Positions 3,591-25,647 of a stretch of DNA of 25,647 bases are shown one piece after another. This DNA comes from Ceraceosorus guamensis (lineage: Eukaryota; Basidiomycota; Exobasidiomycetes; Ceraceosorales; Ceraceosoraceae). A program made the position numbers and the translations under genes. Below the pieces are notes generated by a model. The model was given only the letters and a program-made list of their open reading frames with translations, had not been told where the DNA came from and did not search any database. The stretch covers positions 1-25,647 of the forward strand of contig NW_020290149.1 in the NCBI RefSeq assembly GCF_003144195.1. Reading direction: 5' to 3'. Position 1 is the first letter of the stretch; each line of letters starts with the position of its first letter.

Positions 3591-5128
3591 CTAGTGGTGC
3601 ACACCTCGAGCCTCGAGCTGCGACAACGTGAACAGCATGATCAGTACGGTGCTCCTCCGTCCGGAAGTTCGCTGGTGCCTGCTCACCTCCGCCGCCTTGC
3701 GTTCCGCAGCTGCCAGTCTAGCCTCGAGCTCTTGCAACTCATTAGTCTGCGATTGCACCGCGCTAGCTCTGGAGCGGACGTAGCATGCGGGCCGCGTTAA
3801 TCTCTAATTGTGCACCCGACATGAAAGCTCTAGATCGCACTCACTTCGTCTTGACGCGCTCCTCCATCTCCGCCAGAGCTCGCGTTCCTGCATCGTTCAC
3901 CACGTCCCCGAAGCTGAAATCGTCCCCACCTCCCAAGCTTGGAAGGCTTTGCGGACGAGGTGCGTCAGCAAGGAGTACAGCGAGCACAGCTGCGTGTAAG
4001 CGCTCACCTTGGACCTCCTGCAGCGGCGGCGCCTGGTCCCTGCACAATGTCTGCTTCCGTGCTCGTTGGCGCGTAGCCGCCAGCGACCGCTACCTCTCCC
4101 TCGGGTCGAAGGAAGCATTCTTGCGCGCCCGCTGTGGCTGGGTCAAAAGTATACGCTCGTACTTCTGCGTTCTTCCATTGCTGCAGCGATCAAATCGAGG
4201 GGAAGAAGACTCAGCACAATTGAACCCCGCTCAGAAGGCGTGCAGGTGATTCGTCACGCACGTAGGTGCTAGGTCCTCCAGAAGCAGTGGCTGTGATCTG
4301 TCTGATGATGTCTCCATGTCCTACAAGCAGAATCGTCTTTTCCGGACGAGATCGGATAAATTGTCTGACCCACTGAGCTCGCAGCGCGATCGATTGGGGG
4401 TCGGGCGCTATGAGGCCGACGCTATCAGCATCAGTGCTATCCGATGCTGCAACCGCAATGCAACTGCTCACCCCAGAAGCCCTGTTTGCTGGTCCAGTCG
4501 GGCGTCAGGTTGGAGAGGTCAAAGCCACTGAACTCTGGGTCGCGCTCGAGCACCTCGCGCGGAGATCCAGTGTCGCAGGGAAAGTCGTTGCATTCTGCCA
4601 GATTCAATTCAGTGAGATCGTCAGCTGTCGAATCAGCCTGCACAAGTCCCGCAGCTTGGATGCCCCGACACTTCTTGAGTCGTGGTCGATGCAACGTCTG
4701 CACGCGATCAGCTCTGAGCTCACCTTGCAGTTGGGGCAGAACGATGACCTTCTTCAAACCACCTAGACGCTCGATGGCGGGACCCCAGCCTAGCTTGGTG
4801 CTCTGCAAAGTCCTCTTGAGCCCACTGGAGAGAACGACGTCTACCTGGCTTTGCTCTGCAGCTGTGAAAGAAGGAAGCGTGGCGGACTGCTTCTTTCCCA
4901 GACTGGTCAAGGGTGCGTCAGGAATGCTGTAGTCCAGGTCAACCTGTGACGACGATGATCGTGTTGCGTGCAAAGCCAAAGTCAGCATGCAGTTGCTGTT
5001 GAGCAGCAGCAGCACCACCACCACCACCACCACCACAGCCTAGCACGTCGGAAGCAGTCCAAGTCTTCACTCACATTGTGCTCGGCTTGAGAATGTCGAC
5101 AGATCAAGATGCGAGAGTTTGGTGCCAT
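3591..5128 (-). CDS. Histidine phosphatase (phosphoglycerate mutase-like) family protein
   Basis: Exons, in coding order: 5075-5128, 4724-4943, 4472-4594, 4262-4407, 4008-4180, 3845-3937, 3687-3768, 3591-3617. They give 305 residues, with all seven junctions keeping the frame. Residues 6-18 read RILICRHSQAEHN, the RHG-type motif with nucleophile His12. Arg62 in SSGLKRTLQS fits the second phosphate-binding Arg, Glu92 in PQLQE the general acid, and His163 in LLVGHGDIIR the second catalytic His. ECNDFPCDTGSPREVL and GFDLSNLTPDW are typical of fungal cofactor-independent phosphatases in this superfamily. The likely role is a cytosolic phosphomonoesterase, with unknown substrate. Residues 182-239 form a beta-rich and low-complexity end of the domain. 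About 255-305 is a charged coiled coil (ALAEMEERVKTK, then TNELQELEARLAAAERKAAE), encoded by three tiny exons and not part of the core fold. Intron 2 (4595-4723) is 129 nt with no stop in frame. Confidence 0.88.
5013..5036. repeat. CAC/ACC trinucleotide run within intron 1 of the phosphatase gene
   Basis: About eight to nine CAC/ACC units, preceded by AGC units at about 4997-5012, lie inside the 131-bp intron at 4944-5074. Read on the minus strand they give Val and Leu runs. This makes a false upstream extension of exon 2 look coding. Confidence 0.7.
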
Positions 5129-7129: not shown

Positions 7130-10100
7130 ATGAGGCCCGCTGTGCTGGTCTCGCTCCTGCTGCTGCTTGTGCACGCCTCGGCTGCGCCAGTGCCTTACAT
7201 CGAGCTGGGCGACCGGATCACCAAAAGAGAAAAGTTAGTGGATCACCCAAAGAGTTCAGCAACGTTCTCGAAGCGTGCCGCTCACCTCCTACTCCATCCT
7301 TACAGTCGTGCTGTACATACTGCGTCCGAGGAGCCTGAGAATGAGGCGCAGCAGCAGAATCCTTCCTCGTCGAGTTTCCAAAGGCCATCCGGAAATGCTG
7401 CGAGCACGACTCGATACGAGCAGCAGCGGTCGCACTCTGTTGACGTGGAGCTTGTCAAGCGATACGTGTATCCCAGCAATGATCCAGTTACGCTACACAG
7501 CAAACCATGGCCAAAGCGTCACGCCTTTCAAGTGGTCGCGCCGCCGCGCAAAAAGAAAGATGGCCTGAACGCGGGTCAAATTGCTGGAGTAGCTGCAGGG
7601 TAAGTGTAAATGGAGGAGCATGCTGCCACAGCTTTCGCTTACCCTTGGGTCCTCTTTGCTCAAACGTTGCAGCTCTCTCGCTGGCGCCGGTCTACTGGGC
7701 GGAGCTACGGCTCACGTACTCGGTAAAAAGGTCTCCGGACTGAGTTTCGCTCTGAACAAATTCACAAAGCGTCCACGGGTTGGACCTCTGTTCAAGCAAA
7801 AGATAGAGACGACGCCCACTTTCACGCCCATCTCTCGCGTGTTGCCTCGTGACATACAGCAGATGCATGCTGTCTTGACTCGCAGAGATCTCGCGTCCCA
7901 ACAACTTCTGCACACGGTCAATCAAACCGACAAGAAGGGTCAGAAGAAGCAAAATGGTCTCTCGGATAGGATCACTTCGACGCTGCAAAAAGTGGTGCTG
8001 CCGGCTTTGTGAGTCCTAAATGTGTGGCACGGCCAGGTTCACCGCCACTGACCACTGTCCTTGCGGTCAGAGCGACTCTGGGTGCAATGCTCGCTACGGA
8101 AGCAATCATCAACGGAGTTCAGACGAAGCAGGAAGAGTCGGCCTTGAAGAAGGCAGGTGTGCACGAATTCACTCATGTCCGCGCCAAACGCGGTATCGAG
8201 GATGAGCTATCTCCAGACACGGACACGGTGGTCAGTCGACGAACTGAACACGACGAGTCTCTCGATGCGGGACGATTCGTGCCGATGCCAAGCAACAAAA
8301 AGAAGAAGAAGAAAGGTTCACTGACGACTAAACAAAAGTGGCTCTTGTAAGTTTGCACGCACATCACCCAACCTTTTCCGCTGTTCTCACTTCTGACAGC
8401 GCTTCGCGCGACCAGGGGAGCCGGGGGAGCAACGGCAAGCGTCGGTTTAGCCGGCTTTGTCTATGGCCTCAAGAAGCTGGCTGACCAATTGAAGCAGACC
8501 AAAGGTTTGACTGCTGTGCGACGTCGAGAAGAGGCATCCATGCCAGGGATGGTCAAGTCCCGTGACCTCGATGCTAGGGACACATCAGGGGAGACGGCCT
8601 TCACCGTTCCAGTCTCGCGCGATCGGGACTCACAGATTGCCGCAATAGAGGAGCTGCGCAAACGGGACGCACTTGATGGCAGCTTCGACGTACAAATTTT
8701 GGAAGCTCGCAAGGGCAGGATCAAGTTCAAGCCGCCGAAAAAGAAGAAGAGGAAAGATCAAGCTGCTACGGGAGCAGACCCACCAAGCAGCTCCTCACAC
8801 CGTCACAAGGTCCGAAACGCTGCTTTGGTGTGAGTGCGGGCGTGCGTTCACGCATACTTTCTACCTCAGCGCTGATGCCATCTTGCACTTTGTCCAGCTC
8901 GCTTGGAGCAGCGACTGGTGTAAGTGTGTTGACAGGAGCAATCGGCTTCCGCCGCAGTCTCTCGTCGCTCGCTTCACATTTGTTCACCAATCCCTTTCGA
9001 TACGTCAAGATTTCCAAGCGGGCCGAGAGCGCTTTGCGCGATGCTTGGGACGAAACAACGTTGCGCAAACGTTCACCGATGCATTTCAGACACAAACGAC
9101 CCGATGATGACGACTCGGCCTACAATAATCGCGTCAACGGCAACAACGCTGCACCAGCTCCTAACAGCACTTCGCGCCACAAGACGGCACGCAATGCTGC
9201 TCTCATGTAAGTGCTGCTCGACATCGCCTCGAGGACTTTGAATTCGCTGCTGACAGGAAATTTGGACTTCGATTTGGTACAGTTCCCTTGGCGTGGGAGC
9301 GGGCGCTGGCGTGCTGGGCGGAGCGTTTGGGTACCGCCACAGCCTCCTTGGAATGTTCTCCAGGCCGTTTTCGAACTCAATGCGCTACGCAAAGATCGCT
9401 AGGCGAGACTTTGAGAGCACTGCCCCAACCAGTGCGGAGGAGGGGTTAATCGTTCTAGAAAGACGCAAAGGGGGTGGTGGAGGTGGTCACGGTGGTGGAG
9501 GTGGGGGCCACAGCGGAGGTGGAGCGGCCTCGGGAAGAGGGGGTCCGATCACAGCAGTGCCTGGTGGTGGGGCCTTTGCAGGTGGCAACGCGGCGCGCAG
9601 CGGCTCTAGCGGCGCACACTCGTCAGGCAAAAAGTCAAAGGGTATTAGTGGTGCAGCCCTGGGCGGTATTCTGTGAGTCAATGCCTGCGTTCAGGGACTC
9701 TATCGATCTTGCAACCCATCTGATCTCCTCTGCTTTTTCCCTGCGGGCGCTGGCACCTGCAGTGGAGGCCTCGGAGGCCTCGCCGTGCTGTTTGGTGGGG
9801 TGTATTATGGTGGCAGAAAATTGCGAACCGCACTCATGAAATTTGGAGGCGCAGGAACGAGGAGGTCTGGTAGCAACTCTCCGAGGCATCATTTCGATCC
9901 TGAACGGGCTTCTCGGGCCCCTCATCACTTCAAACGATCTGAAGAGCACATTTCTTTAGACCACGAAGCATCTAAAATTTCTCGTGCTGAAGATTCAGCC
10001 AATGAGACCACTGCCATCCTCGAGCGTCGCAAAGGCGGAGGTGGCGGTGGCGGTGGCGGTGGGCATGGCGGTGGTGGTGGCGGGGGTTTCCGAGGTGGTG

Positions 10101-13100
10101 GCGGCGGGGGGTTTCGAGGTGGTGGAAGCGCTACTGCGGTCGGTGGAGGAAGCTTCTCGCGCGGCCGCGCTCCCCCTTCCAGCGGCAAGGGCAAGGACTG
10201 GAGTTGGGGAGCCACAGCAGGTCTTCTGTGAGTTGGGTCACGCGAAGCTTGTGCGGACGTATCCCAATCGCTTACGCAACCTTCTAATCGTTCATGCTCA
10301 GCGGAGGACTGGGAGGTGCTGCCGGACTCGCTGCGTTAGCAGCAAAGTGGCGATCGGGCGGCCTGAAGGGCATCGGTCGATTCTTTTCTGCACCATTCAA
10401 GAACAAAAGCAAACCCAGAGGTGTTACTCTTTCAGGCGCAGAAGGGCGTGGTACAGACTTCAAGCCGCTTCCTGCCCCTTATGCACCAGCCATCTTCAAA
10501 AGGTCATCAGCCAATCTCTCGATCCCAGAACGAGGGGAGACGCCCATCCGAAGCTTGACTACAGACACAGATAGCTCGAAGCTCGATCGTCGCAACTTAG
10601 CCTTGTAAGCACGGCGACGGTGTACCTAAGAATATGAACTTTCTTTCTGACGCTTGCGACCCTTTTGGTGCTGCTTTTTTTTGAAGCAACCTTCGCGCAT
10701 CGCCAGCGGAGGCACACGACGAGCGCAACAGCTTGCAAGAGCGAATCAGTGCAGCCAAACCCTCCATCGAGCGAAGAAACTTCTTCGATCACGATGACGC
10801 TCAAAGTGATGGCGGGCCTTCGTCAGGTCCGGCAACGCGACGACTGCAGCGCCGGGATCTCCAGACAAAGACGGACCATCTAGAGGTTCGTCAGTCCACA
10901 CCTGCTGAAAAATCTCGTAAGAAAGGAGGTTGGGATTCCATCTCTGGTAATGCCAAAGCAGGCATTGGCTTCGTACTTGGGCTTGGCGCTGGTGCTGCTG
11001 GAGCTCTAGGCATTAGAGCTGGCCTTGCAAGGCTGGCCAAGACTGCTCGTCGGGCGACCCCTGTGCGCATAGAGGCTTCTCCCTCGAGGGGACAAACGCC
11101 TCTCCTGCCACACGTGCCTGAACCTCGTCGACAACCGAGCGTCTCTCGGCAGCTTTACAATTTCGAGAACGCCTATGCTGGTGAGGTCACTCCGGCCGGA
11201 GTGCGTGCCATCGAGCGCTATCGTGGAATTGAACGTGGCATACTGATGTCTGGGAGGTCCCGAAGAGAGCCTCGCCGGTCGCCTGACCGCGGACCCGGTA
11301 GCGTCGAGTTGACCAATCTCAGGGCAGCACGACCAGCATCGCGTCTTCCTAGACCCAGTGCGCCTCAAGAATTTGCACTTCGCCCGTCCGGTGGACAAGG
11401 GCGCGGTGCGGAGTTGCATCCCTCGAGTCCGGCTCCATCGAGCTCGGACTCCAATGTTTCCATTCCACCCATGCCGGCACATTTCGACGGACCACGACGT
11501 CGAGATCTCATGGCTCCGGCTACATCTAATTTAGTGAGGCGATCGGCGTTGAAGCAGCCTTTGGCAGCACGAGACTTATCTTCCGGCGAAGAGTTTGGAC
11601 TGGGCCTAGGTGTCGGCGTGGCTGGCGGAGCGACAGGATATCACTTTGCGCGAAAGGCCATCAGTGGGAACCATCAGCAGGTCACAAGTCCTTCGGACGC
11701 GTCGGAGCACATCACTCCATTCTCCGACCGTCGCCGAGAAAGTATGGAGCATCTAGAACCCAATACCGGGACAGCAGCTGGTGCTGAGAATATCCACAGT
11801 CCAGCGATGCTCTCGAATTCGCCAAGTAGGTTGCCAGCGATTCTTGAGGACACCTCTCCTGAACGCTTAGTCGCACGACAAGGTAATTCCGGCTCTTCGA
11901 GTCGGGCACGAAGGCCCACCTCGGACTCGCCATCGACTGTTCGCGACGGTGGTCATCGAGCATTGACACCAGAACACACCCTTAGCCATCCGGCTAGAGA
12001 GTCAAATTCCCTCGACGAGCTGAATGCAGCGCGTTCTTCGAGACCTGCATCCAGATTCCCGACGTCGGGATCTCAAAGAGCCCCTCATCTGGGCGAGCAA
12101 CGACGCGGTGCTGAAGAACACACAATGCAACACACTACTGACGCCACTCGCGGATTCCAAAGAATGGCAGGATCAGGTCCTCCTAGACGCGGTCTTGGTT
12201 ATAGAGAGGGCCTGTCGGACGGAATCAACCTGGCTTGGGGTTATCAACCCGCTTACTACGCGCACGCCGGCTCTCTTCGAGATTCTGACATGCTCGGAGA
12301 CATTCCTGGCGGTCTGCCGTCAACATACCTTCGAGGACTGCGTCACGGTCGAGGGCAAGCGCCACCCCGCCGGACTTCTTTGCTTCATCCGGAGCAGCAT
12401 GGAGCATCTGCGTCTCGAACAGACTCAGATCGCTGGCGTGGAAGGCAGTCTGGTATGGTAGACCACTCTCCTGAGAGCCCTTCCAGCCCAAGTAGCACAT
12501 CATCCGCAGACTCGAGCACGCCGTTGGAACGAGAGCTCTCGAGGGCATCGAGCATCGTTGAGGGTGCAGCGCTACGCTTCGATCATCCTCGCCGTCGCGC
12601 ATTGTCGTCTTTCGCTACGACCCTAATTAGGCGAGGGTATCCCAGCAGGTCCATTACCGAGCTTTCTCCAAAGCTACATGGATCCTTTACTTCATTGGAG
12701 AAGCGCCTCTCGTATCCTGGCGAAAGTAAGGAAGATGAGAAAAAACAAAGAGAGCTCATGTCATTGGCATTTGCATCTATGGGTGCGTTGGTGGCAGGAG
12801 GACTGCTTGGGCACTATGCAGGAAATCGACACGAGCAGATCATGGCGGCTTTGCGCAGAATGAAGGAAAGCTGCGTCAATTGCCTTGGTGGTGGTACTAG
12901 GAACGCTGAGAGGCTTGCCATCAACGCCGGTCCTGATCATGCTTCTTCTGGCCCTGATGCTTTGTCGCACAGCCCTGTCGAGCGCTCCACGAGCTTCGAC
13001 GCTCTCTCAAGATCGGGCCAGTCCAACGACGTCCCATCGCACGCGCTCAGCACCCCCGAGTACCGCACTCTCAGCAGGAGCACATCGCAAGGCGGTGCCC

Positions 13101-16100
13101 AATTGGCAGCACCGAGCCGGTCCATGACCCACAGCGCCTCGTTTGCCGGACTGCGTGATGGACATCATCCACCAGCTCGCAATGAGCAGCATAGCTTCGC
13201 GGCGCCTGAAATCGAGTTGGCTTCTCCAGAATCACCGCCACAGCTCGTGCGGAACCACAAGTTGCGTGGTGACGCTGGCCCCTCCACTTCGAGCCAAGCG
13301 CACGAAACGACTCGAAGCTCTTCGCTCGGAATCGCGCCCGATCACCTGCATCGTCGCCAGGGAGATGCAGCCTTTGGAAGCGCACGGCGGTACATCGAGT
13401 CAGACATTTTGGCTGCGACAGGCGCTTCTCGCTCTAGCACGCCCGCAGCACGCGAAGCCCAGTCCCTCGCCACTCGAGATGCGAATGGAGACGATTTCGC
13501 ACATCCATCGAACGACTACCACCTCACGTCAAAGGAGCTAGGCAAAGGCCTCGCTGGTGTCGGCGGCGCTATTGGTGTGGCAGCGGTGGGAGCTGGCAGC
13601 TTCTTCCTCGCGAAGTGGCTAAGGAACAGGTTCTCCAGGACAGCTTCCGCGAAAGTGCATCACGTTCTGCCACAGGGAGGAGATGCTTCCCCGCGCCTAA
13701 ATGATCCGCATCGCCGCGATGTTCAGCTCACGACTGCGCTCAGCAGCCCAAGGTCAGGCAACGAGAGTCGGAAGGATCAGACTGTTCTCTTGCCAAAGAG
13801 GAACCGTCAGCTAGACTCGACAATTAAACGCAGGCAGACGCCTGATTTGCGCGCAGACCGTCCTGTGCCGACCGCCGCTGAAAAGCAAGCTGCGCATAAG
13901 TCCGCGGCGGAGCGAGCTCGCAAACATGCTATGGTGTATGGCGGTCTGGTTTTTGGCACAGCTGGAACTATTGCGACACTCATCCTGGGCAAAAAGTTGC
14001 ACGCTCAATGGGGAACTTGGAGCCGTGCTGCCAAAGCTCGCACGACCATGAGAGCGAAAATGTCCGCCACGTCTTCTGTGCGGTCCCAGTCAAATTCTAG
14101 CCCCGCCGCTGACGAACGCGGCGACAGTGTACGCCGCTCGATCGATGGGTCGTCCACACCCAGGCTCAGCAAGAGAAATTCGGCACCCGCATCGGGCAAC
14201 GCGCCCAGATTCGGCACTTATGAAGTCGGTGCACACAATCTCTCAAAGGGCCCGCTACCAGATGCTGCACATCGAAGACAGGCTCAAGACCAAAAAGTCT
14301 TCGAGAAGGATGCCTTCAAGAAAGCTGCTATCTTAACGACCGCTATCTCTGGTGCTGTAGGAGGTGCCTTTGGACTCTATCACGGAATCAAGCGTCTTCC
14401 TGCAGGTGTCAAGACTCTGCGCGCCAAATTGAGGCGCTGGAAGGGCACGGCCGAAGTGACACCTATTGCACACGTTCTAGAGATGGTGCGTCACCCTCTA
14501 GCGGGACCACGAGTGCATCTCCCTCGTCGAAATTTAGACGAGATTGCAGAAAGGGCTGGAAGCGTCCGTTACAAGAACCTACTTGTGCGCCGCGAGGATG
14601 CGGACTACCAGAAGCAACGTTTGCAGCCTCCCACCAGTGAGGAGCCCGCCAGGAAGAAGCATTTTGGCGATGATAAGCTCGATTACGCGCTAGTCTCGGT
14701 CGGAGCCGCCGCCGCCACGATTTTTGGTGGCTACGGCCTCACCAAGCTTTATCGAGGCGCTCAGCGTTGGACGCGAGCAGCTGTACGGCAGAAGAATCGG
14801 ATGAGCGCCGATGTGATGCCTGTGGAGCACCCGCCGCCCGGTGCGCTGTTTGCCCCGCAGGCAGGACAGCGCAATCAAATTCCGCGGCTGTTGGTCACGC
14901 TGCCTGAGAGGACGGCACCGCCTCGCCCACACTCGGCCTTGCCTCTCCAGCGTCGATCTACTGTTTCGAGTAGCGGCTCCACTGCAGATCTTCCATCAGG
15001 CAAAAAGACGTCATTTGGTCTTCGAAAGCCCGCCGTCGATCTCGAAAAGGATGTTCGATTACTGCGTCGCGGCGATCAGACCGCGCCAACCGGCTCAGGC
15101 ACAGCTCACGACAGGTCACTTGAAAAGCCAGATTCGCTTCTCAACGTAGCCGAGCAGCATCCTGCTGCTTTCTGGAGCACGACCGCAGTGGGTGGGGTGG
15201 GCGCCGGTGTTTTGATTGGGATGGGTTCTCTCAAAGCAGCAAAAGGCATAGACGCGCTCCGAGAAGCCGCACCAGGGCTCGTGGAGCGGCTTCGACGTCA
15301 GCGGAGACGCATGACGACGAGCGTGATGCCCATCGAGCGTCCGCCGTCCAATGCATATTTCCAGCCGCACCATGTGCCAGGATCGCGCGAAGCCAACGTG
15401 CGGATGGTGCCTCTGGCACCTGAGGCGCTGATGCCGCCGCGCTCGCTTCCCTCTTCCTCCATACAGCGCCAAGCCGCTGCTCCTAATTCTGCGCTCCATC
15501 GACGGCAGCAGTCCGACGTCGCACCCACGACACAGCCTCAGCAAGGCGAAGAAGCTGGCTCGAAAGCCAATGCCGACGCAGAAATAGTAGCGGCTGAGGC
15601 GCGACACCACGATCGAGAAGTTGAGCGACACAATCACATGATAGACACGATCAACAATGTCAGTCGCACTGCCGTTTATCCTCTGGGTGCAGCAACGGCA
15701 GCTCTCGCGCTTTATCTCGGCTTCACCGGACAAAGAGGTAGAGCCCTATGGTCTCGAATCTGCGCTTGGAAAGCTCGCCGTTGCCCAACAGTCACGCCTG
15801 TGATGCCAATTTCTCCCCACGAAGCAGAGAGGCAGATGCGAACTCGTCGATGGGGTTTACCTCGATTTGTTCATGATCGTACGCGCCAAGCCATTGCAAA
15901 CATACTGCCACCGCTTCGCGAGCAGCACGCGTTCAGAGTCGAGGCCGGGGCCCAACCTGTGCTGAACCATCTTCCGCGCGAGCCCATTACACGTGCACGT
16001 CGCCCAGAACAAGTGCCGCAAGCAAACGATCGACACGTCGCGATAGCAAAAAGAAGTGTGCTGGCGAAAGGGTCAAATGGTTCAGATGCACGTTGGAGCG

Positions 16101-16612
16101 CACCACCAGACGCAGCCCAACGTCGAATCGATGGTCATAGTGCAAGGACATTCTTTGTAACGCGCCGAGACGCAGCCGGAGCGCAAGCAGATCAAACTCG
16201 ACATGCAGCTGATGAGGAGGCCGAAAAGGTGCGGAAGTTGAAGAAGAAGAACAAGAAGGAGTCCAAAATCGCCTGGACCTATGTTGGATTGTTCGGAGCT
16301 TCGGCGGGCCTGATGTTCGGCAGACCAGTCTTCAAGGCGCTGAGCAGAAAGATGACAGCTTGGCAAAATCGGCGCAACTCTGCGATTCAGCCGGTCTCTG
16401 CTAGTCTTGCAGAGCATCAATTAGCTGCTCGACCGGTAGGATTTGAGGGCGAAGGCGCTGCTGGCACAGAGGTCAGGGCCAGGGCCGGGGCTGAAAGGCC
16501 CACGCCCGCGCCCGCGCCCGCATCGAACCTCGCTCGCCTCCCTCGCGAGCGCATGCATAACGAGGTCCACGGCCCCGTACTTCTGGTCCCTGGTGCTCCC
16601 TTTCCATACTGA
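7130..16612 (+). CDS. Giant secretory-pathway protein with about 17 glycine-zipper hydrophobic modules
   Basis: Exons: 7130-7599, 7673-8008, 8071-8346, 8416-8829, 8898-9206, 9283-9672, 9763-10227, 10302-10604, 10687-16612. They total 8,889 nt, or 2,962 residues. All eight introns (62-90 bp) are phase 2. Residues 1-19 (MRPAVLVSLLLLLVHASAA) are a clear signal peptide. Hydrophobic G-rich segments start near residues 150, 269, 361, 499, 602, 732, 887, 1076, 1288, 1678, 1937, 2068, 2199, 2320, 2482, 2647 and 2848. Typical ones are LGVGAGAGVLGGAFGYRHS, GVGVAGGATGYHFARK and SGAVGGAFGLYHGIKR. Most have a basic cluster before them and a basic helix after them, then a V-x-P-[IV] motif. Long Ser/Pro/Arg-rich linkers hold many KR/RR sites. 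The family is not recognised. It is either a Kex2-cut precursor of many peptides or a multi-pass membrane scaffold. An alternative exon 9 acceptor at 10731 is also in frame. Confidence 0.85.
9469..9540 (+). repeat. Gly/His-rich linker in exon 6
   Basis: GGT/GGA codon runs encode LERRKGGGGGGHGGGGGG followed by more His-, Ser- and Gly-rich sequence, directly after an RR pair. The run lies between two hydrophobic segments and is matched by a similar linker in the next exon, so it was duplicated with its exon. Confidence 0.85.
10036..10125 (+). repeat. Gly/His/Arg-rich linker in exon 7
   Basis: This is the sister of the exon 6 linker: LERRKGGGGGGGGGG, then His and two FRGGGGGG-type repeats. RGG-like repeats usually belong to RNA-binding proteins of the nucleus or cytosol. 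Here they sit in a protein with a signal peptide, so a spacer role is more likely. Confidence 0.85.
10950..16350 (+). repeat. Ten further module copies within one exon
   Basis: The cores lie at about 10950-11040, 11585-11670, 12756-12833, 13531-13629, 13925-14000, 14318-14400, 14682-14760, 15166-15245, 15661-15738 and 16264-16350. The two at 14682 and 15166 are followed by clearly related linkers (SADVMPVEHPPPGALF and TTSVMPIERPPSNAYF). Their spacing is 120-390 residues, and the last seven are the most regular. Homology to the exon-encoded copies rests on the shared G-x-x-x-G-[GA]-x-x-G pattern, flanking basic residues and the following proline motif, not on long identity. Confidence 0.75.
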
Positions 16613-16969: not shown

Positions 16970-19900
16970 TCAATGAGAGGCAGCAGCGGGTGCAGGTGCA
17001 GGTGCAGAATCGGCCGATACGAGCACCGCGAACCCCGCGGCAATCGTAGCGCATCCCAGCAGACTTATCCACTTGAATTCGTGTCCCAGTGCAATGTCCG
17101 CAAAGAACACTTGCAGGAGCGGGCGTGCGTGCGGCGCGGGAAAGGAAGAGGAGGGGCCCGGGAAAAGCAAACAAATTGGAGAGGAGGAGGGGGGGGGGAA
17201 AGAAGGAAAATGTTTTTTTGGCAAGTCAGCTGGGTCTGTAGAGAAAGCGCGTACCTAGGCGCAAAAAGAAGACGCGCGCACTTACCGAGGACGGTTGTAA
17301 GTAAGCAAGAGACGCTAGCAAGCACGGGTCCCCAGAGGGAAAGTAGCAGCACTGCACAAGAGGGGGAGGGAAGCATTACACAATCATGGCAAAAGGGGTC
17401 GTCAGTCTGTTGGCGTCTGAAGCGGCGAGAGGGGGGGATGGGGGGCAAAGAAATGTACTGACTAAAACAACCATTGAAAATGATTCCCATGCCCGCCACG
17501 CCCGCAATACAAAGCACCGTCGTCCAGTTGCTTGGAAGCTCGAACGTTTCCCAACCCAAGAGGTGCGCGATAGGCTAGGCAGCACAAGCGGACGTAAAAA
17601 GGGAGGGACGTGCGCGTCATCAGAGGAAGTTCAGATGGTGATGAGTATTCTTGGATTGCAACGTCTTCCTGAGTCGGGCAGGGGCGCCAAAAGCAGGCAA
17701 GGTGCGGTCGACTCACGAGACCTATCCAGAGCGTGAGGAGCGTGACGAGACCGATGCCGGACGTCATGAGGTTAGAGTGGAGTCCGAACGGTAAAGGAGG
17801 AGGCATCCAATGCTCCTCTGTGTCTTGCCCACCACCTCCTCTGCTCTTGCCAGCACCGCTGCTGCTCGTCTCTTTGCCTCTCCGTCTCTGCTCCGCACTT
17901 CCTTCTCGTTGTGCCCCCACCGTCGTCAGTCTTGATGAATTGCCCGAATCGGCGAGATGGGGCTCGAACACGCTCCGAGCTGATGGTCTGTTCGTCTTTG
18001 GCAAGATCCGACTCGCTCTGGCCCCCGCCCCCGCTCCCTCTGCGCGCGAAGAAGCAGCAGCAGCAACAGACCTATAAGAGCCGCCTTTAGCCCTTCCTAA
18101 ACGAGTAGAGCCTCTGCCTACTTCTTCTTCGTCGTCCGAACTCCTATACGCTTCCGTCTCGCTGGATGATTCCTCTTCTTCTTCTTCTTCCTCCTCCTCC
18201 TCCTCCTCTTGCCGCTCGCTCGTCCATTCGTCAGCCTGCCTCTCCTCCTCATTTCGTCCACTCTTTCCCTCCACAGCCCCCCGCTCTCGACCTCGCGCTT
18301 GTCGCTCTTCCTCCTCCAGCTCAACCCGCTCGCTCTCCTGCGCATCGTCCTGCAACAATCCCTCTTCCTCCGCCCTCAACGTCCTCGTCTCTGACGTCAC
18401 ATAAGGATTCCCCAGCTGGGCCGCACGATAGCTCGTAGGTCTCCTCACACCTCCACCTCTACCAGCTCTGCGGCCCCCAGCAGCAGCAGCAGCACCCGCA
18501 TACCTTTCCCTCTGCGCCTTCTCGTCCGGCAATTTGCCTAGCAGCGCAAAGGCCATTTCGTAACCTGCCATGGTCACTGCTCCTACAAAGCTCAAGATCG
18601 CACCTAGCAGGGGATTTGAGCCGTTCGGATTGGGCGTCGGCGCCGGCGCGGGGCTTGGCGAGGTGTCTGAAGGGGATCTTTCCACATCGATGTCCAAGCC
18701 AGATCGATGAGGCAATAATGATCGACGAAGCAGCATAGGCAGGTGCGAAGATGCCACGTCCGAAGTGGAGGCAGCGTGGCTGAACATCGGATCGGCTTCT
18801 CTAGGCCTTCGTCGGTGTTCTGCTCCTCCATAAGCTACCAGCACCACACCTCCCACCGCCAGCAACACAGCCAGCACCTTTCTCTGCATCAAGCAAAGCC
18901 GATCGCGGAATGGCGTCACCCGGGTAGCCGGAGTCGAAACATTACAAGCGTCGTTAGAGGAGGTGCAACTTTCGCAGTCGGGCACAGCATATACTCACGC
19001 GCTCCCATTTCTCGCCGAGAAAGTAGATGGAAAAGACGAGCGCCCAGACTGCGTAGGTGTTGTAGATCGTCGTCACATCCGCCATGGTGGTGAGGGGAAC
19101 TGCGGAGTACCTGTGCGTTCACCACCAGCAGCAGCAGCAGCAGCAGCACATTAAGGGAAGCAAGAGCATGCGCTTAGTCTTGCTGAATCATGAGCCCCAC
19201 CAAATCTAGAGTCGCGGGCGTGCTCTCTCTCCCTCCCTCGCGCCCTCCCTCCAGCTCGCTCTCTCTGTATGTGTGCGCGCAAACTCACCAACTGAGAGCA
19301 GGAACGGTGATGCCGATGGTGAGTATGAAGAACAATTTGATGAGAGCCAAAATATCGAATCCAAAAGCTTTCTCCAGCGCACTCTGCAGCTCCGGAGGCC
19401 CTCTACCGCTCCTCTGTTTGCCTATTCGCGCCCCCAACTGCTCCGACTCCTCCTCCTCTCCCTCCCCCTCCTCCTCCTCTCCCTCCCCTCCCTCATTCCT
19501 CTCCGCTCTCCTCTCGTCCATGCTCGAGCTCGCTGTCCTGCTCGAGCCGAAGCTGGTTCGATGCGTAGGTGGATCCAACTGCGACTCGTCGGCGCGTGCA
19601 GCGTCGAGAGTGTTGCTGGTGCTTGCGAGCAACAGTTGAGATCTGGATCTGCTCCAAGTGGAGCTGAGCCTGCTCCTGACCCTTCTAGCCACCCTGGTCA
19701 AATGTTCCGGCGCCTCTTCTTCCCTTTGCGAACTGCTGAGTTGCCAATTCAGATTAGCAGCTATGATCTCGTAGTGTTTGCCCAACGTCGTTCCGGGATA
19801 CCGGATGCGCAGATAGAGCAGATGAATGGGTAGCAGGAGCAAAAAGGAGCTGTGACCGATAAAGAGGCACAGGAATGGTTTTCGATAGGATAGACCTGAT

Positions 19901-20241
19901 TGGACGTACTGCGCCAGTTCCGTCTGGATCGTAAAGGCGATCAGAGAGATGCCAAAGGCGCTTAGTGCTTTGCCGCCTCCTGGCAATGAGATGAAGCGTT
20001 TCTTCTTCCTTTTGGTCGGACGAGAGGGGGTGGGTGTGCTGAGCTGTGAGCCGCTGGATGTGGCGCGTTGGCGTGATGAAGGGGGAGGGGCGCTGGAGGT
20101 TGAAGCGGGAACGAAGGCGGGGGCGGCGGCGGCTGCTGCCGCTGCTGCCGCTGCTGCCGCTGCTGCCGGAACACTTGACTGGCTAGCATGTTCCCCCTCT
20201 CCGTTTGCCCCGCCCTGTTTGTACGTGCCTGTTGGCGCCAT
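16970..20241 (-). CDS. EamA/DMT-type membrane transporter (SLC35F-like)
   Basis: Exons, in coding order: 19289-20241, 18999-19110, 17717-18883, 17463-17574, 17286-17351, 16970-17109. They give 849 residues. About ten membrane segments are visible: near 92-113, 122-146, 298-320, 332-350, 357-376, 446-470, 728-750, 762-781, 782-808 and 817-836. The stretch WYSAVPLTTMADVTTIYNTY and then VFSIYFLGEKWE is typical of the vacuolar/SLC35F branch of drug/metabolite transporters, as is SLWGPVLASVSCLL in the second half. The substrate cannot be told; relatives sit in vacuolar or Golgi membranes. Unusual parts are an N-terminal Ala run (residues 26-40), a long Ser/Glu loop after TM2 (about 150-290), and an acidic, disordered loop of about 250 residues with a Glu run between TM6 and TM7. 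The intron 4 donor (GTCAGT at 17462) is non-standard but is the only one that keeps frame. Confidence 0.85.
18173..18207. repeat. CTT/CCT trinucleotide run coding a Glu tract
   Basis: On the minus strand these GAA/GAG repeats give a run of about 12 Glu followed by SSSE in the TM6-TM7 loop of the transporter. The run is pure at the DNA level in two blocks, so length variation between strains is likely. Confidence 0.8.
20119..20168. repeat. GCN run coding an N-terminal alanine tract
   Basis: Alternating GGC/GCT/GCC units read on the minus strand as about 15 consecutive Ala near the transporter N-terminus, just before its first membrane segment. The third-base pattern (CTGCTGCCG units) shows growth by six- and nine-base steps. 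Confidence 0.8.
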
Positions 20242-21336
20242 GCTCGATACGTGCGCGGCAGAGGAGGGCCTGTGTGTATAGAGTGCTTTGTTCTCCTCAG
20301 CGATGTGATGCGTATGTTTTCGCCCCCCCCACCCCCCTCGAGCTTAGACGCTGCAGGTGGGAATGTCAAGTCCAAGTCCTTGCCCCCGCGCCCATCAACG
20401 AGAATGAGGAAAGCTTTGTACGTGCGATGCTACGCCCAACTCTGCAGCACCTTTTCGGGCCAAGCGCTGAGAATGTCAAGAGGAGGGGGGAGAGGAGGAG
20501 AGGGGTGCAAAGATGATCAAAGCCAAAGAGCGTTGAGCTGTGAGCTGTCGAGTCGTGGGTCGTGGGGTCGTGGGGTCGTGTGCGAGCGAGTGCTGCAGCA
20601 TGTGCTGGCAATTAAGATGAGCAGCACAGCTCCTTCGAGCGCCTGCGGGGGTGGTGGTCGCAGCACAGCCAACCATCCGAGAATTGAATCGAACATCAGT
20701 CACGTGAGCGCTGTGACTGCGTATATGTGGTGTGCCTTGGCCGGCCGGGGCGGAGGCGGCGGCGGCGGCGGCGGCGGGCGCGTTCCTGAACTCAATTAAC
20801 GGCCGCGCATGAGTCTGGATTTGAATTAAGCCTGCACGCTGCTGCTATGAACGTTTATTTTATTATTCTCACGACCTCATCGCGCGCGCCCCAATTTTGA
20901 ATGCCAATCCAGTCAAAGAGTCCGAGAATCGAGTCGATCCGAGTCGACTCGACTCTACCAACTTACCGCATCAAGCAGCAGCAGCAGCAAATTCAAGGGC
21001 AAACGGGGGAGAGAGAGAGAGAAGATAAGCGAATCAGAGGGGGAAAAAAGTCACGAGTCCGAGTGTGGCTGGCGCCTACGAATGGGCTTTCGAACATCCC
21101 CTCCCTCCCAACACAAACGCGCGACTTCTTTTCCCCTCTTGAAAGCGTCCAACTTCACAATCGAAAGCAGCCAAAGGGGAGGCCCCTTTTGAGCCATCTG
21201 TCTCACTGCACGGGGGATTCAAAGAGGAGCGAAGCAAGAGCATCTTGCTCGAATTTCCTGCTCGCTTTGTCTTTGTCATCCAGGTTGCAACACAGCTGAA
21301 AGGAGGGAGGACACGCTACAGAGCGAAGGAAAAGTC
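20242..21336. other. Promoter region between transporter and HYPK-like genes
   Basis: These divergent genes share about 1.1 kb. It holds two C runs near 20322-20337, tandem GTCGTGG units at about 20552-20580, a (GGC)n run at 20756-20778, an AT-rich patch TTTATTTTATTATT near 20855, a (GA)n run at about 21009-21022 and a TCACGAGTCC motif at 21051. No coding frame is convincing; the 132-residue plus frame at 20901-21299 is built partly from repeats. Confidence 0.5.
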
Positions 21337-22639: not shown

Positions 22640-23865
22640 CCTGCTGAGACTGAACGATTTCACAAAGCACCCGCCCCATTCCCCCGACCCCCAAAAGTTC
22701 GTTTGGAGGGGGGTGGGGGGTCACGTGTGCGATCGTTGGCTTGCATGGGCCATTCGACAACAATCGTGAATGTGGAATGTGTCAAGAGGATTGGACGCGA
22801 CACGCTCCGCACGAAGTGGGAAGTGGGAAGCTGGGAGATGCGGTGAGCGCGCGCGGTATCGCAAGCAATTAGTCACGCAAGCGGAGTAGCTAGGCGAAGC
22901 GCGCGAAGCGCGGGCAGGGCAGGGCAGATGGCGTGTGCAGTCTGAGTTTGAGTGTAATACGTGCAACGCTTGGAATTTGGACATTCACTTTTTCCGGCCA
23001 GTAGAGGTTACGACACGCACTCACTCACGAGTCACGATTCATCAACGATTCTGATTGAAAAGCTTGTGCTCAGCAGCATTTTGGTTCAGATTGATTCATT
23101 CAGCTTCGCGTAGTCATTCAACTTTCGAGATTGAAGTCAGGCGGGCGCGGGCAATGTGAATCTTGAATGAAGCCTCGGTTCAGCTTGATTCCCTAGCTGT
23201 GATATTCATGCGAATCAAGCTGTGTATTGCGCTGCTGTGCAGCTCAGGCCAGCGCAGCCAGGCAGCAATTTGAATTGAAGCAGCTAGCTATATATAGATA
23301 GCCCGCCCACCTCCACCATCTTGCATATGCAAGCATATATATGCAGATGGGTACACTTTTGACTACTGTATACTGTAGGTATAGGTACATGTGCTGTAAT
23401 CGATTGTGTACCGCGGTGCGCAATCAGCAGCGGTCCGACGGTCGGTTCGGCTGGATGCTGTGTCATTCATCGTACGATGTTTGCTTCCTTGTATTCGATA
23501 TACACGTTCACATTCAAGATTCACGATTTGCTCAACACTGCCTGCATACAGCAGTAGCTCCTAATCACGAATCGCGCCCGCGCGCCCGATCACGAAAATC
23601 ACAAAGAATCATGAATTTGAACATTCCCCTCCGTCCATCAAATCGTCTTTGCTTTGTGATCGGGGAGGGGGAAATGGGATCGATGTTATTCACGATTCAC
23701 GATTGTTTGTGTCGTGTGCCAGCGCTCGAGTAAAGCTGTAGGGCTGTAGGGCGCAGTCAGAGCGTGCCTTTTGAGCCACAATTGCTTAGCGGTGAAGTCA
23801 GAGTCACGAGTGCAGGTGCACGTTAGCCAAACTTCAAGGGCGCGCGCGCCTTGGGTGATCCTTCG

Positions 23866-23907
23866 CCTCCTCCTCCTCCTCCTCCTCCTCCTCCTCCTCC
23901 TCCTCCC
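23866..23907. repeat. CCT trinucleotide run
   Basis: About 14 CCT units lie roughly 95 bases upstream of the DUF4336 start codon. They probably fall in its promoter or leader as a polypyrimidine tract on the coding strand. Read through in frame they give a false Leu run upstream of the true start. Confidence 0.9.
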
Positions 23908-24001
23908 GCACGCAAGCCAAGCATCCACCCCGCTCACAACAAGGAAGTGTCTGCCGCCTGAAAAGAATCGTACCGCTCGCACTCGCAACCCCGACCCGGT
24001 G

Positions 24002-25589
24002 ATGAGCGATCAGATGGTCTCCAACACCAACACTGCGCAAGCTCATCCTTCGACATCCACATCCACAGCAGCGGAGAGCATGTCCAGCACCACCACCCGA
24101 CTCTCCTCCCCTCACGCCACGCTACGAACCTTTTCGGCGCCTTTTAGCAGGTTCGGCATCATTCCTGTGGGGGGTAGGAGCACGGCTGCTAGGTTGAGCG
24201 ATGGAGGCGTTTGGGTATTGGCTAGTACGCCTTTGGACGATGTTACGAAGCGAGGAATAGAGGAGCTTGGGAATGAGGTCAAGTGAGTATTTTTTGTGCG
24301 CCAAGTGGGGGGGGGGGGGGCTTGGAGGGGGAACATGTATGCGGCTCCCCCCATCTCTCTTCAATGCTGACGCCCTCGTAATATACCGCTCCGGGGGGGG
24401 GGGGGTGGGGGGGGGGCTTGGAGGGGGAACATGTATGCGGCTCCCCCCATCTCTCTTCAATGCTGACGCCCTCGTAATATACCGCTCCCGCTCCCCCTTC
24501 CCGCCTCACTTGCTTGCTTGCCTCGCCTTGCTCGGGTGCTTGTTTGGGTGGGAAAAAGATATATCATCGCGCCTGATGTGGTGCATCATCTGTACATCAA
24601 GGATTTCGCAATGGCTTATCCAGGAGCCAAAGTGATCGGAGTGGATGGATTGGAGAAGAAGAGGACGGATGTGAAGTGGGATGGATGTGAGTGGTGTGTT
24701 TGCGCGAGCTGTGAGCTGCGAGCTGCGGGAATGGGGGATGGGGATGGAGGTGTGGGCATGCATGCTGCCTCTTTTGGGACTCCCGGAAGCGTCGGGCGAT
24801 GCTGATGCCGCACAAGCGCAGCTAGCCAAGTCAATCACGAGCCGCGGGATGCGTGTCCCAGTCATGTCTTGACGTCCACACCGCCCCCTTTCCAACCCCC
24901 CCATTCGCAGTGTACGGCAAGGATGCACCAGACACAAGGTACGGTTTCGAGGATGACATCTCTGCCAGGTATTTCAGCACTTTTGCCAACAAGGATGTAG
25001 CCTTTTGTCATCACGAGTCCAAGGTGAGGCCTCGGGATCGCTTGGTGATGTGCAGAAGCGTCGGGCAGCATGTGCTTTGGGCGTGTTTCTTTCTGCCAAT
25101 GCTGCTGTACCTACACGTGCGATGGACCTTTGTACAAAAGAGGGGAGAAAAAGGCGCGCAGAAAGGAGCTGAGCTGAATACTTGCGCACCTTCCTCGCCC
25201 CCCCCCCCCCCCCCCCCCCCTTCTTCTGCTCTGCTCTGCTTTGCCCCTGCTCGTCAGTCTCTCATCACTGCGGATCTCATCTTCAATCTCCCGTGCAACG
25301 AGCAGTACTCCAACACCTCATCAGGTCGCCCAACCTCTTTGATCCCATTCCTCTCCTTCTTTTCAAAATACATGGTCCCTTCTTCCTCCTTTCACCAATC
25401 CTTCTTGTGGTCAGCAGGAGCAGCGTCAGGCCAAGGCTCCACGTCGGATAGGAGGAGACAATTCGCAAAGGACGCTCAAGCTGTGAGCACGTGGGAGTTT
25501 GAGAGGATCATCATGTGCCATGGAGATGTGCTGGAGGGAAGGGAAAAGGCAAAGAAAGCTTGGAGAGAAGCTTGTGCAAAGGTGAGTTT

Positions 25590-25647
<58 letters not shown>
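24002..25647 (+). CDS. DUF4336 (metallo-beta-lactamase-like fold) protein, 5' part
   Basis: Exons: 24002-24282, 24559-24686, 24911-25023 and 25258-25581, with introns of 276, 224 and 234 bp. A GTGAGT donor at 25582 opens a further intron that runs off the window. 282 residues are visible. After a Ser/Thr-rich start, residues from about 40 read TLRTFSAPFSRFGIIPVGGR, then RLSDGGVWVLASTPLDDVTK, then YIIAPDVVHHLYIKDFAMAY. This is the pattern of fungal DUF4336 proteins, a family with a metallo-beta-lactamase-like fold and the His pair in VVHHLYI. WDGLYGKDAPDTRYGFEDDI and SLITADLIFNLPCNEQY continue it. The biochemical role of the family is unknown. The start could also be the ATG at 24080. Introns are longer than elsewhere in the window because they hold repeats. 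Confidence 0.85.
24307..24488. repeat. 72-bp direct repeat with G runs inside intron 1 of the DUF4336 gene
   Basis: 24321-24392 and 24417-24488 are identical over 72 bases, a 96-base period. Each copy is preceded by a G run (14 G at 24307-24320; 24 bases of G broken by one T at 24393-24416). Perfect identity points to recent duplication. Both copies carry a CTGAC branch-site-like motif. Confidence 0.95.
25198..25220. repeat. Run of 23 C in intron 3 of the DUF4336 gene
   Basis: A pure C run lies about 37 bases before the exon 4 acceptor at 25257 and could act as part of the pyrimidine tract. It is a likely site of sequencing or length error. Confidence 0.95.
25595..25647. repeat. CT dinucleotide run reaching the window end
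   Basis: At least 26 CT units start 13 bases after the exon 4 donor and continue past the window. The run may mark why the sequence breaks here. Confidence 0.95.

Follow-up and report, generated by a model that had tools for sequence, protein, structure and literature searches.

A window of 25,647 nucleotides, positions 1-25647 of contig C154 in the genome of Ceraceosorus guamensis (23.8 Mb, 199 contigs), carries on its forward strand one very large gene, which is the subject of this report. C. guamensis is a yeast-like fungus of leaf surfaces that belongs to the smut clade (Ceraceosorales, Exobasidiomycetes, Ustilaginomycotina). The gene is a single open frame that runs from an ATG at 7130 to a stop at 16612, and a dynamic-programming splice model divides it into nine exons separated by eight GT-AG introns of 62-90 bp. 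The spliced product, 2,962 residues long, starts with a putative signal peptide that was recognized by inspection and that lies in a hydrophobic window (residues 1-27) with a Kyte-Doolittle value of 2.04. An earlier, sequence-only reading of this DNA had proposed one secretory protein of about 2,960 residues across this interval; the splice model and codon usage bear out the single long product, and by inspection its start looks clearly like a signal peptide.

The protein is organized around 17 separate hydrophobic segments, each followed by a polar linker. In fact, 16 stretches of at least 15 residues in the mature protein are free of D, E, K, R, N, Q, H and P, when shuffled versions contain 0.4 on average and never more than 4 (500 shuffles). 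Module 2, which contains one Glu (residues 264-286), was added as the seventeenth segment, and this count agrees with the 17 G/A-rich stretches seen before. A Kyte-Doolittle value of 1.2 over 19 residues is reached by 15 of the 17. The glycine-zipper character that had been attributed to the whole set holds for 14 segments, which contain a strict GxxxG, and not for modules 2, 14 and 16. Similarly, a shared ending had been assigned to "many" of them; we find it in five (modules 4, 5, 9, 13 and 14), so that the word was generous. Basic residues on both sides are indeed the rule: the C-flank is net positive in all 17 modules and the N-flank in 14, and the first 20 residues after the segments comprise 25% K+R and 4% D+E. 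The linkers between modules are 72-370 residues long, 17 of the 18 linkers are net positive, and Cys makes up 0.1% of the protein. This pattern does not reflect the genome background, since a six-frame filter for G/A-rich, basic-flanked segments retained 10 in the gene; over 200 kb sampled from this genome (0.8% of it), the filter retained 3. The Hessa hydrophobicity scale did not separate the segments from the signal peptide or from a neighboring transporter-like frame, and was dropped as evidence.

Table 1. Coordinates of the gene, its introns, its hydrophobic modules and the stretches treated differently by the NCBI model
Feature	Positions	Strand	Details
Whole gene	7130..16612	+	9 exons, 8 phase-2 introns, 2,962-aa product; from splice model, NCBI introns, codon usage
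Signal peptide	7130..7186	+	aa 1-19
Intron 1	7600..7672	+	phase 2, within module 1
Intron 2	8009..8070	+	phase 2, within module 2
Intron 3	8347..8415	+	phase 2, within module 3
Intron 4	8830..8897	+	phase 2, within module 4
Intron 5	9207..9282	+	phase 2, within module 5
Intron 6	9673..9762	+	phase 2, within module 6
Intron 7	10228..10301	+	phase 2, within module 7
Intron 8	10605..10686	+	phase 2, in linker; sole exception to the within-module position
Exon 9, complete codons and stop	10688..16612	+	aa 989-2962; intronless modules 8-17
Module 1 segment	7571..7721	+	aa 148-173; contains intron 1
Module 2 segment	7992..8122	+	aa 264-286; contains intron 2; no GxxxG, one Glu
Module 3 segment	8339..8470	+	aa 359-379; contains intron 3
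Module 4 segment	8819..8952	+	aa 496-517; contains intron 4
Module 5 segment	9193..9334	+	aa 598-619; contains intron 5
Module 6 segment	9641..9814	+	aa 722-749; contains intron 6
Module 7 segment	10199..10347	+	aa 878-902; contains intron 7
Module 8 segment	10952..11029	+	aa 1077-1102
Module 9 segment	11585..11641	+	aa 1288-1306; Kyte-Doolittle below 1.2 over 19 residues
Module 10 segment	12752..12820	+	aa 1677-1699
Module 11 segment	13538..13624	+	aa 1939-1967
Module 12 segment	13928..13999	+	aa 2069-2092
Module 13 segment	14321..14380	+	aa 2200-2219
Module 14 segment	14678..14743	+	aa 2319-2340; no strict GxxxG
Module 15 segment	15161..15241	+	aa 2480-2506
Module 16 segment	15668..15730	+	aa 2649-2669; no strict GxxxG; missing from NCBI model
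Module 17 segment	16265..16321	+	aa 2848-2866; Kyte-Doolittle below 1.2 over 19 residues; missing from NCBI model
Two Gly-rich blocks	~9460-9580 and ~10030-10150		after LERRK, in linkers 5 and 6
Stretches removed or read otherwise by NCBI model	7232-7306, 8920-9009, 11063-11152, 11201-11557, 11825-12631, 15659-16612

The NCBI protein for this locus, IE81DRAFT_353746, is 2,344 residues long and thus 618 residues shorter than the uncut reading. The NCBI model places all eight introns as we do, within the precision of the split codon, and removes further stretches in exons 1, 5 and 9; it also changes frame over 12057-12458 and again over 15693-15800, where it stops at 15800, with the loss of modules 16 and 17. 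Exon 9 sits in a 1,975-codon open frame. When codon usage was trained on exons 1-8, the uncut frame of exon 9 outranked both other forward frames in all 19 windows and all five alternatives in 18, with two windows near 15488-16087 scoring slightly below zero. Because codon usage ranks the uncut frame first, the stretches of exon 9 that NCBI cuts look coding; those of exons 1 and 5 belong to the training set. In alignments, what NCBI takes out of module 4 corresponds to sequence that its model retains in module 5. This argument does not extend to the 75-base cut in exon 1. We therefore prefer the uncut 2,962-residue reading: judged from these sequence features, the NCBI model seems to cut out coding sequence together with the last two modules.

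How did such a protein arise? The introns carry a signature. All eight are in phase 2 (chance of all sharing one phase 4.6e-4 if phases are equal) and seven of them lie inside hydrophobic segments at a matching place (chance of at least seven of eight 2.7e-5 under random placement). The split codons of modules 1-7 encode G, L, L, V, I, L and L, the next residue is S, A or G, and they lie 3-11 residues into the segments, whose limits were set in this analysis. Each of exons 2-7 thus begins with the latter half of one segment and stops after the opening half of the following one; being symmetric (2-2), these exons can be duplicated with the frame intact. Among 136 pairwise comparisons, C-flank similarity exceeds z = 4 in modules 14-15, 5-6, 4-5, 6-7 and 16-17, all of them neighbors, as expected from tandem duplication. 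N-flanks exceed this value in two pairs, 6-7 and the Lys-rich non-neighbors 2-17 (z 4.5), and similarity over all pairs is low (mean z 0.43 for C-flanks, 0.41 for N-flanks). These patterns strongly indicate that the array of modules 1-7 expanded as a phase-2 exon, bounded on both sides within the hydrophobic segment, was duplicated in tandem. In the all-pairs comparison, homology of modules 8-13 to the remaining modules is not supported by sequence.

Modules 4 and 5 share 29 identical residues over 55 aligned positions even though synonymous sites are saturated (pS 0.83, pN 0.31), and thus purifying selection seems to have acted on the protein. Modules 14 and 15 give a weak selection signal (dN/dS 0.70). 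The only stretches more than 60% identical over 40 residues are the Gly-rich blocks of linkers 5 and 6 (residues 647-691 and 805-849).

A second signature lies in the linkers. The rule used in PMC6339444 has fungal Kex2 cleaving after KR and RR. In the 16 inner linkers, the kexin-like motif [KR]R[DENQS] occurs 31 times where 12.9 are expected, a 2.4-fold excess that none of 1000 shuffles reached, and it is present in 15 of these 16 linkers. The mirror motif is at chance (14 vs 13.0), and so are [KR]K[DENQS] (7 vs 6.1) and [KR]R followed by any other residue except K or R (24 vs 25.8). Thus, the excess is both directional and specific. In silico cutting at every KR and RR yields 62 fragments, four being the minimum for Kex2-processed repeat proteins (KEPs), and leaves each of the 17 segments on a fragment of its own, 39-164 residues long; of these fragments, 16 carry a net positive charge and one has zero. 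The C. guamensis genome also encodes a kexin-type P-domain.

We propose on this basis that the gene encodes a secretory polyprotein, from which Kex2 is predicted to release about 17 glycine-zipper peptides or single-span mini-proteins, most of them cationic, a reading to which we give a little better than an even chance. The chain would enter the secretory pathway, where Kex2 in the late Golgi would cut the linkers and set free about 17 distinct fragments, roughly 40-165 residues long and with a single hydrophobic core apiece. By analogy with Ustilago Rep1, the released fragments might next engage membranes or assemble with one another at the cell surface. The units would act singly, after release, and some fragments may stay membrane-bound. 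The sequence-only reading had offered a precursor of this kind as one of two possibilities, and the kexin-like sites and the P-domain speak for it. The same reading had overlooked these sites as well as the exon-duplication signature; what is new here is this phase-2 signature, the directional kexin-like sites, and linkers that show no odd/even alternation (see below).

Several observations weigh against such a precursor. The set DENQS was picked after the list of residues following the dibasic had been viewed; the narrower [KR]R[DE] gives 11 vs 4.9 (4 of 1000 shuffles). KR alone is not in excess (15 vs 13.9), the excess being in RR (49 vs 33.2), and, given the composition, it is unremarkable that each of the 16 linkers holds a dibasic (337 of 2000 shuffles). 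In aligned module pairs, dibasic places are kept in three of seven cases (539/642, 789/953 and 820/983; not 517, 765, 2410 and 2528), no better than K/R generally, which makes conservation of the sites weak evidence. This count draws on 4 of 11 module pairs, pairs 1-2, 2-3, 3-4, 12-13, 13-14, 15-16 and 16-17 having been dropped for self-overlap arising from the region limits; judged by eye, LERRK at 662/820 is an eighth place and is conserved too. Full cutting would also yield 45 fragments that lack a hydrophobic segment, and the C-flanks show no significant amphipathic signal (56 of 500 shuffles). Finally, if the emerging segments were inserted in the membrane of the endoplasmic reticulum, half of the linkers would lie beyond the reach of Kex2.

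The protein could instead remain uncut, as a secreted or wall-bound structural protein in which the glycine-zipper segments would act as stickers that assemble the whole chain into a matrix at the surface, spaced by disordered linkers that are polar and basic. The long and mostly basic linkers would suit this role, and so would the Gly-rich blocks of linkers 5 and 6, which are of a type found in structural proteins. Directional kexin-like sites in nearly all inner linkers would expose such a chain to Kex2, and we regard this explanation as unlikely, at roughly one chance in five.

The other possibility raised by the sequence-only reading, a single many-pass membrane scaffold with 17 crossings in alternating orientation, fares less well. 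The segments are of plausible membrane length, and in 14 of 17 modules positive charge is greater on the C-flank than on the N-flank (p 0.013, two-sided), as in stop-transfer sequences. In fact, this asymmetry suggests that most modules are built to one orientation, when a scaffold should have opposite asymmetry in odd and even modules and lumenal features such as kexin sites and sequons in every other linker. Odd modules have a mean C-minus-N charge difference of 2.0 and even modules one of 2.25 (Mann-Whitney p 0.92). With the end linkers included, kexin-like sites number 16 in 1,255 residues of even linkers and 17 in 1,290 residues of odd linkers, and N-glycosylation sequons number six and five respectively. 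The absence of any odd/even difference in charge, kexin-like sites or sequons argues against one multi-pass protein, as neither class of linker looks cytosolic. The scaffold is thus improbable, and a precursor more probable than not. Least credible of all is a decaying or mis-modelled locus, a pseudogene or separate small genes read as one frame, for which the disagreements with NCBI (exons 1, 5 and 9 and the 3' end) and the lack of a detected relative could be invoked and which the long open frame of exon 9, its preference in every forward comparison, the eight shared introns and the purifying selection between modules 4 and 5 make very hard to sustain.

Returning to the Kex2-cut precursor, its nearest counterparts by function would be Rep1 and Hum3 of Ustilago, together with the KEP class. 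In Ustilago maydis, Rep1 and Hum3 are secreted precursors with repeated amphipathic units between Kex2 sites; Hum3 has 17 repeats, and Rep1 peptides form amyloid-like fibrils at the surface (PMC4617103). The C. guamensis protein would resemble them as a smut-clade secreted precursor whose units are separated by Kex2-like sites, with 17 units as in Hum3. It differs in that its units are longer, mostly diverged beyond recognition and built around a G/A-rich core, in a protein of 2,962 residues, when the repeats of Rep1 and Hum3 measure 31-55 residues in proteins of 828 and 652 residues (PMC4617103). Unlike Hum3, it has no hydrophobin match and hardly any Cys: no hydrophobin appeared among Pfam matches up to E 1 (residues 1-670, exon 9 and the 17 modules). 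Rep1 and Hum3 homologues were not among the results of our protein searches, which drew on candidates of similar length that had words in common with the query and made no direct comparison with Rep1 and Hum3. A looser parallel is Ece1 of Candida albicans, the candidalysin precursor, a secreted protein of 271 residues with seven KR motifs that is cut by Kex2 to give, among its products, a membrane-damaging peptide (PMC5784256); the likeness is one of design, with no sequence relation claimed and no lytic products implied for C. guamensis.

Like KEPs, the protein has units between dibasic sites, together with a start that looks like a signal peptide. Two surveys have collected such proteins, with selection rules that this gene would probably escape. 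The screen in PMC6339444 drops TMHMM-positive proteins and motifs below 15% of the length, and with 17 hydrophobic segments the gene would likely be lost as TMHMM-positive. The survey by Umemura (PMC7329392) asks for at least three tandem repeats of at most 100 residues each. By our approximation of that rule, only one pair of similar repeats exceeds 60% identity over 40 residues, and 5 of the 17 segment-bearing fragments are longer than 100 residues, so that in repetition and unit length the protein falls outside the KEP class. The gene thus probably falls in the gap left by both surveys, and Ceraceosorus is not named in the main text of either.

The small-residue core of the modules is also reminiscent of CD4, EphA1 and glycophorin A, type I single-span proteins with dimerising helices. 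Such helices have a basic C-flank. These are three kinds among ten chance-level PDB profile matches (E 0.15-2), so that the analogy is one of layout, and the remaining matches (e.g. mitochondrial uS5m and CFAP44) have nothing notable in common.

Could the gene have relatives elsewhere? Exon 9, residues 20-620 of the NCBI protein and spliced residues 20-663 were used to search 5.8 billion proteins, each search covering about 8,000 word-sharing candidates with lengths near that of the query. Among these candidates, the searches returned the gene's own record or nothing, and the sole match is "hypothetical protein IE81DRAFT_353746 [Ceraceosorus guamensis]", which UniRef names "Transmembrane protein" in a cluster of one member. 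We provisionally call the gene a species orphan, since an orthologue in C. bombacis with a fragmented model could escape a search limited by length and words. A plasmid collection searched with the first 663 residues gave no match. Within Pfam, NCBIfam and PDB, no credible match was found (best E 0.011, 0.022 and 0.15), where the Pfam scan took in residues 1-670, exon 9 and the 17 modules, residues 671-988 being represented by modules 6 and 7. The modules matched ten Pfam families, one module each, the best being Podoplanin (E 0.011), and none of the 17 matched a glycine-zipper family. Within these searches, the absence of a recognised family, also put forward by the sequence-only reading, therefore stands. 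No paper on this locus was found in the literature, supplementary files being outside the scope.

In its own genome, module 5, exon 9, residues 1-663, module 6 and modules 14-15 detected no paralogue at credible E-values among pre-filtered candidates. Three matches were judged to be due to chance. One (E 0.012) runs antisense to a frame that we take to resemble pyrroline-5-carboxylate reductase, another (E 0.06) antisense to a frame of 651 residues with a presumed resemblance to a fasciclin protein, and at the third (E 0.47) no module-like frame was seen. A match to the GGAFGY pattern on contig C197 fell in a 96-residue frame without a comparable segment and was rejected.

We can tentatively envision, although the odds are somewhat against us, a one-gene arsenal or coat, in which Kex2 would deliver about 17 different membrane-spanning or self-assembling glycine-zipper mini-proteins, built by tandem duplication of an exon that starts and stops within the core, and belonging to a class that lies outside the filters of both surveys. 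If so, each duplication would recombine two half-segments. The gene would then exemplify what the survey gap may hold, namely many different hydrophobic-core products from one transcript, and its exon layout suggests a route by which such genes could originate, through symmetric exons that end inside a hydrophobic core.

Elsewhere in the window, a reverse-strand frame at 4440-5039 comes near the cut-off for histidine phosphatase branch 1 (PF00300, E 4.6e-4, 20.4 vs 21.7 bits). Two reverse-strand frames at 17465-20343, for which Pfam gave only a sub-threshold Nop14 match (E 0.01), look like one SLC35-type transporter split by introns. On the forward strand, 23750-24283 gives a sub-threshold match to the FAM174-like membrane protein family DUF1180 (E 8.2e-4, 20.3 vs 27.7 bits), possibly via a Leu run. 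The contig ends in a simple repeat at 25600-25647, a run of SL in one frame, where the assembly probably broke.

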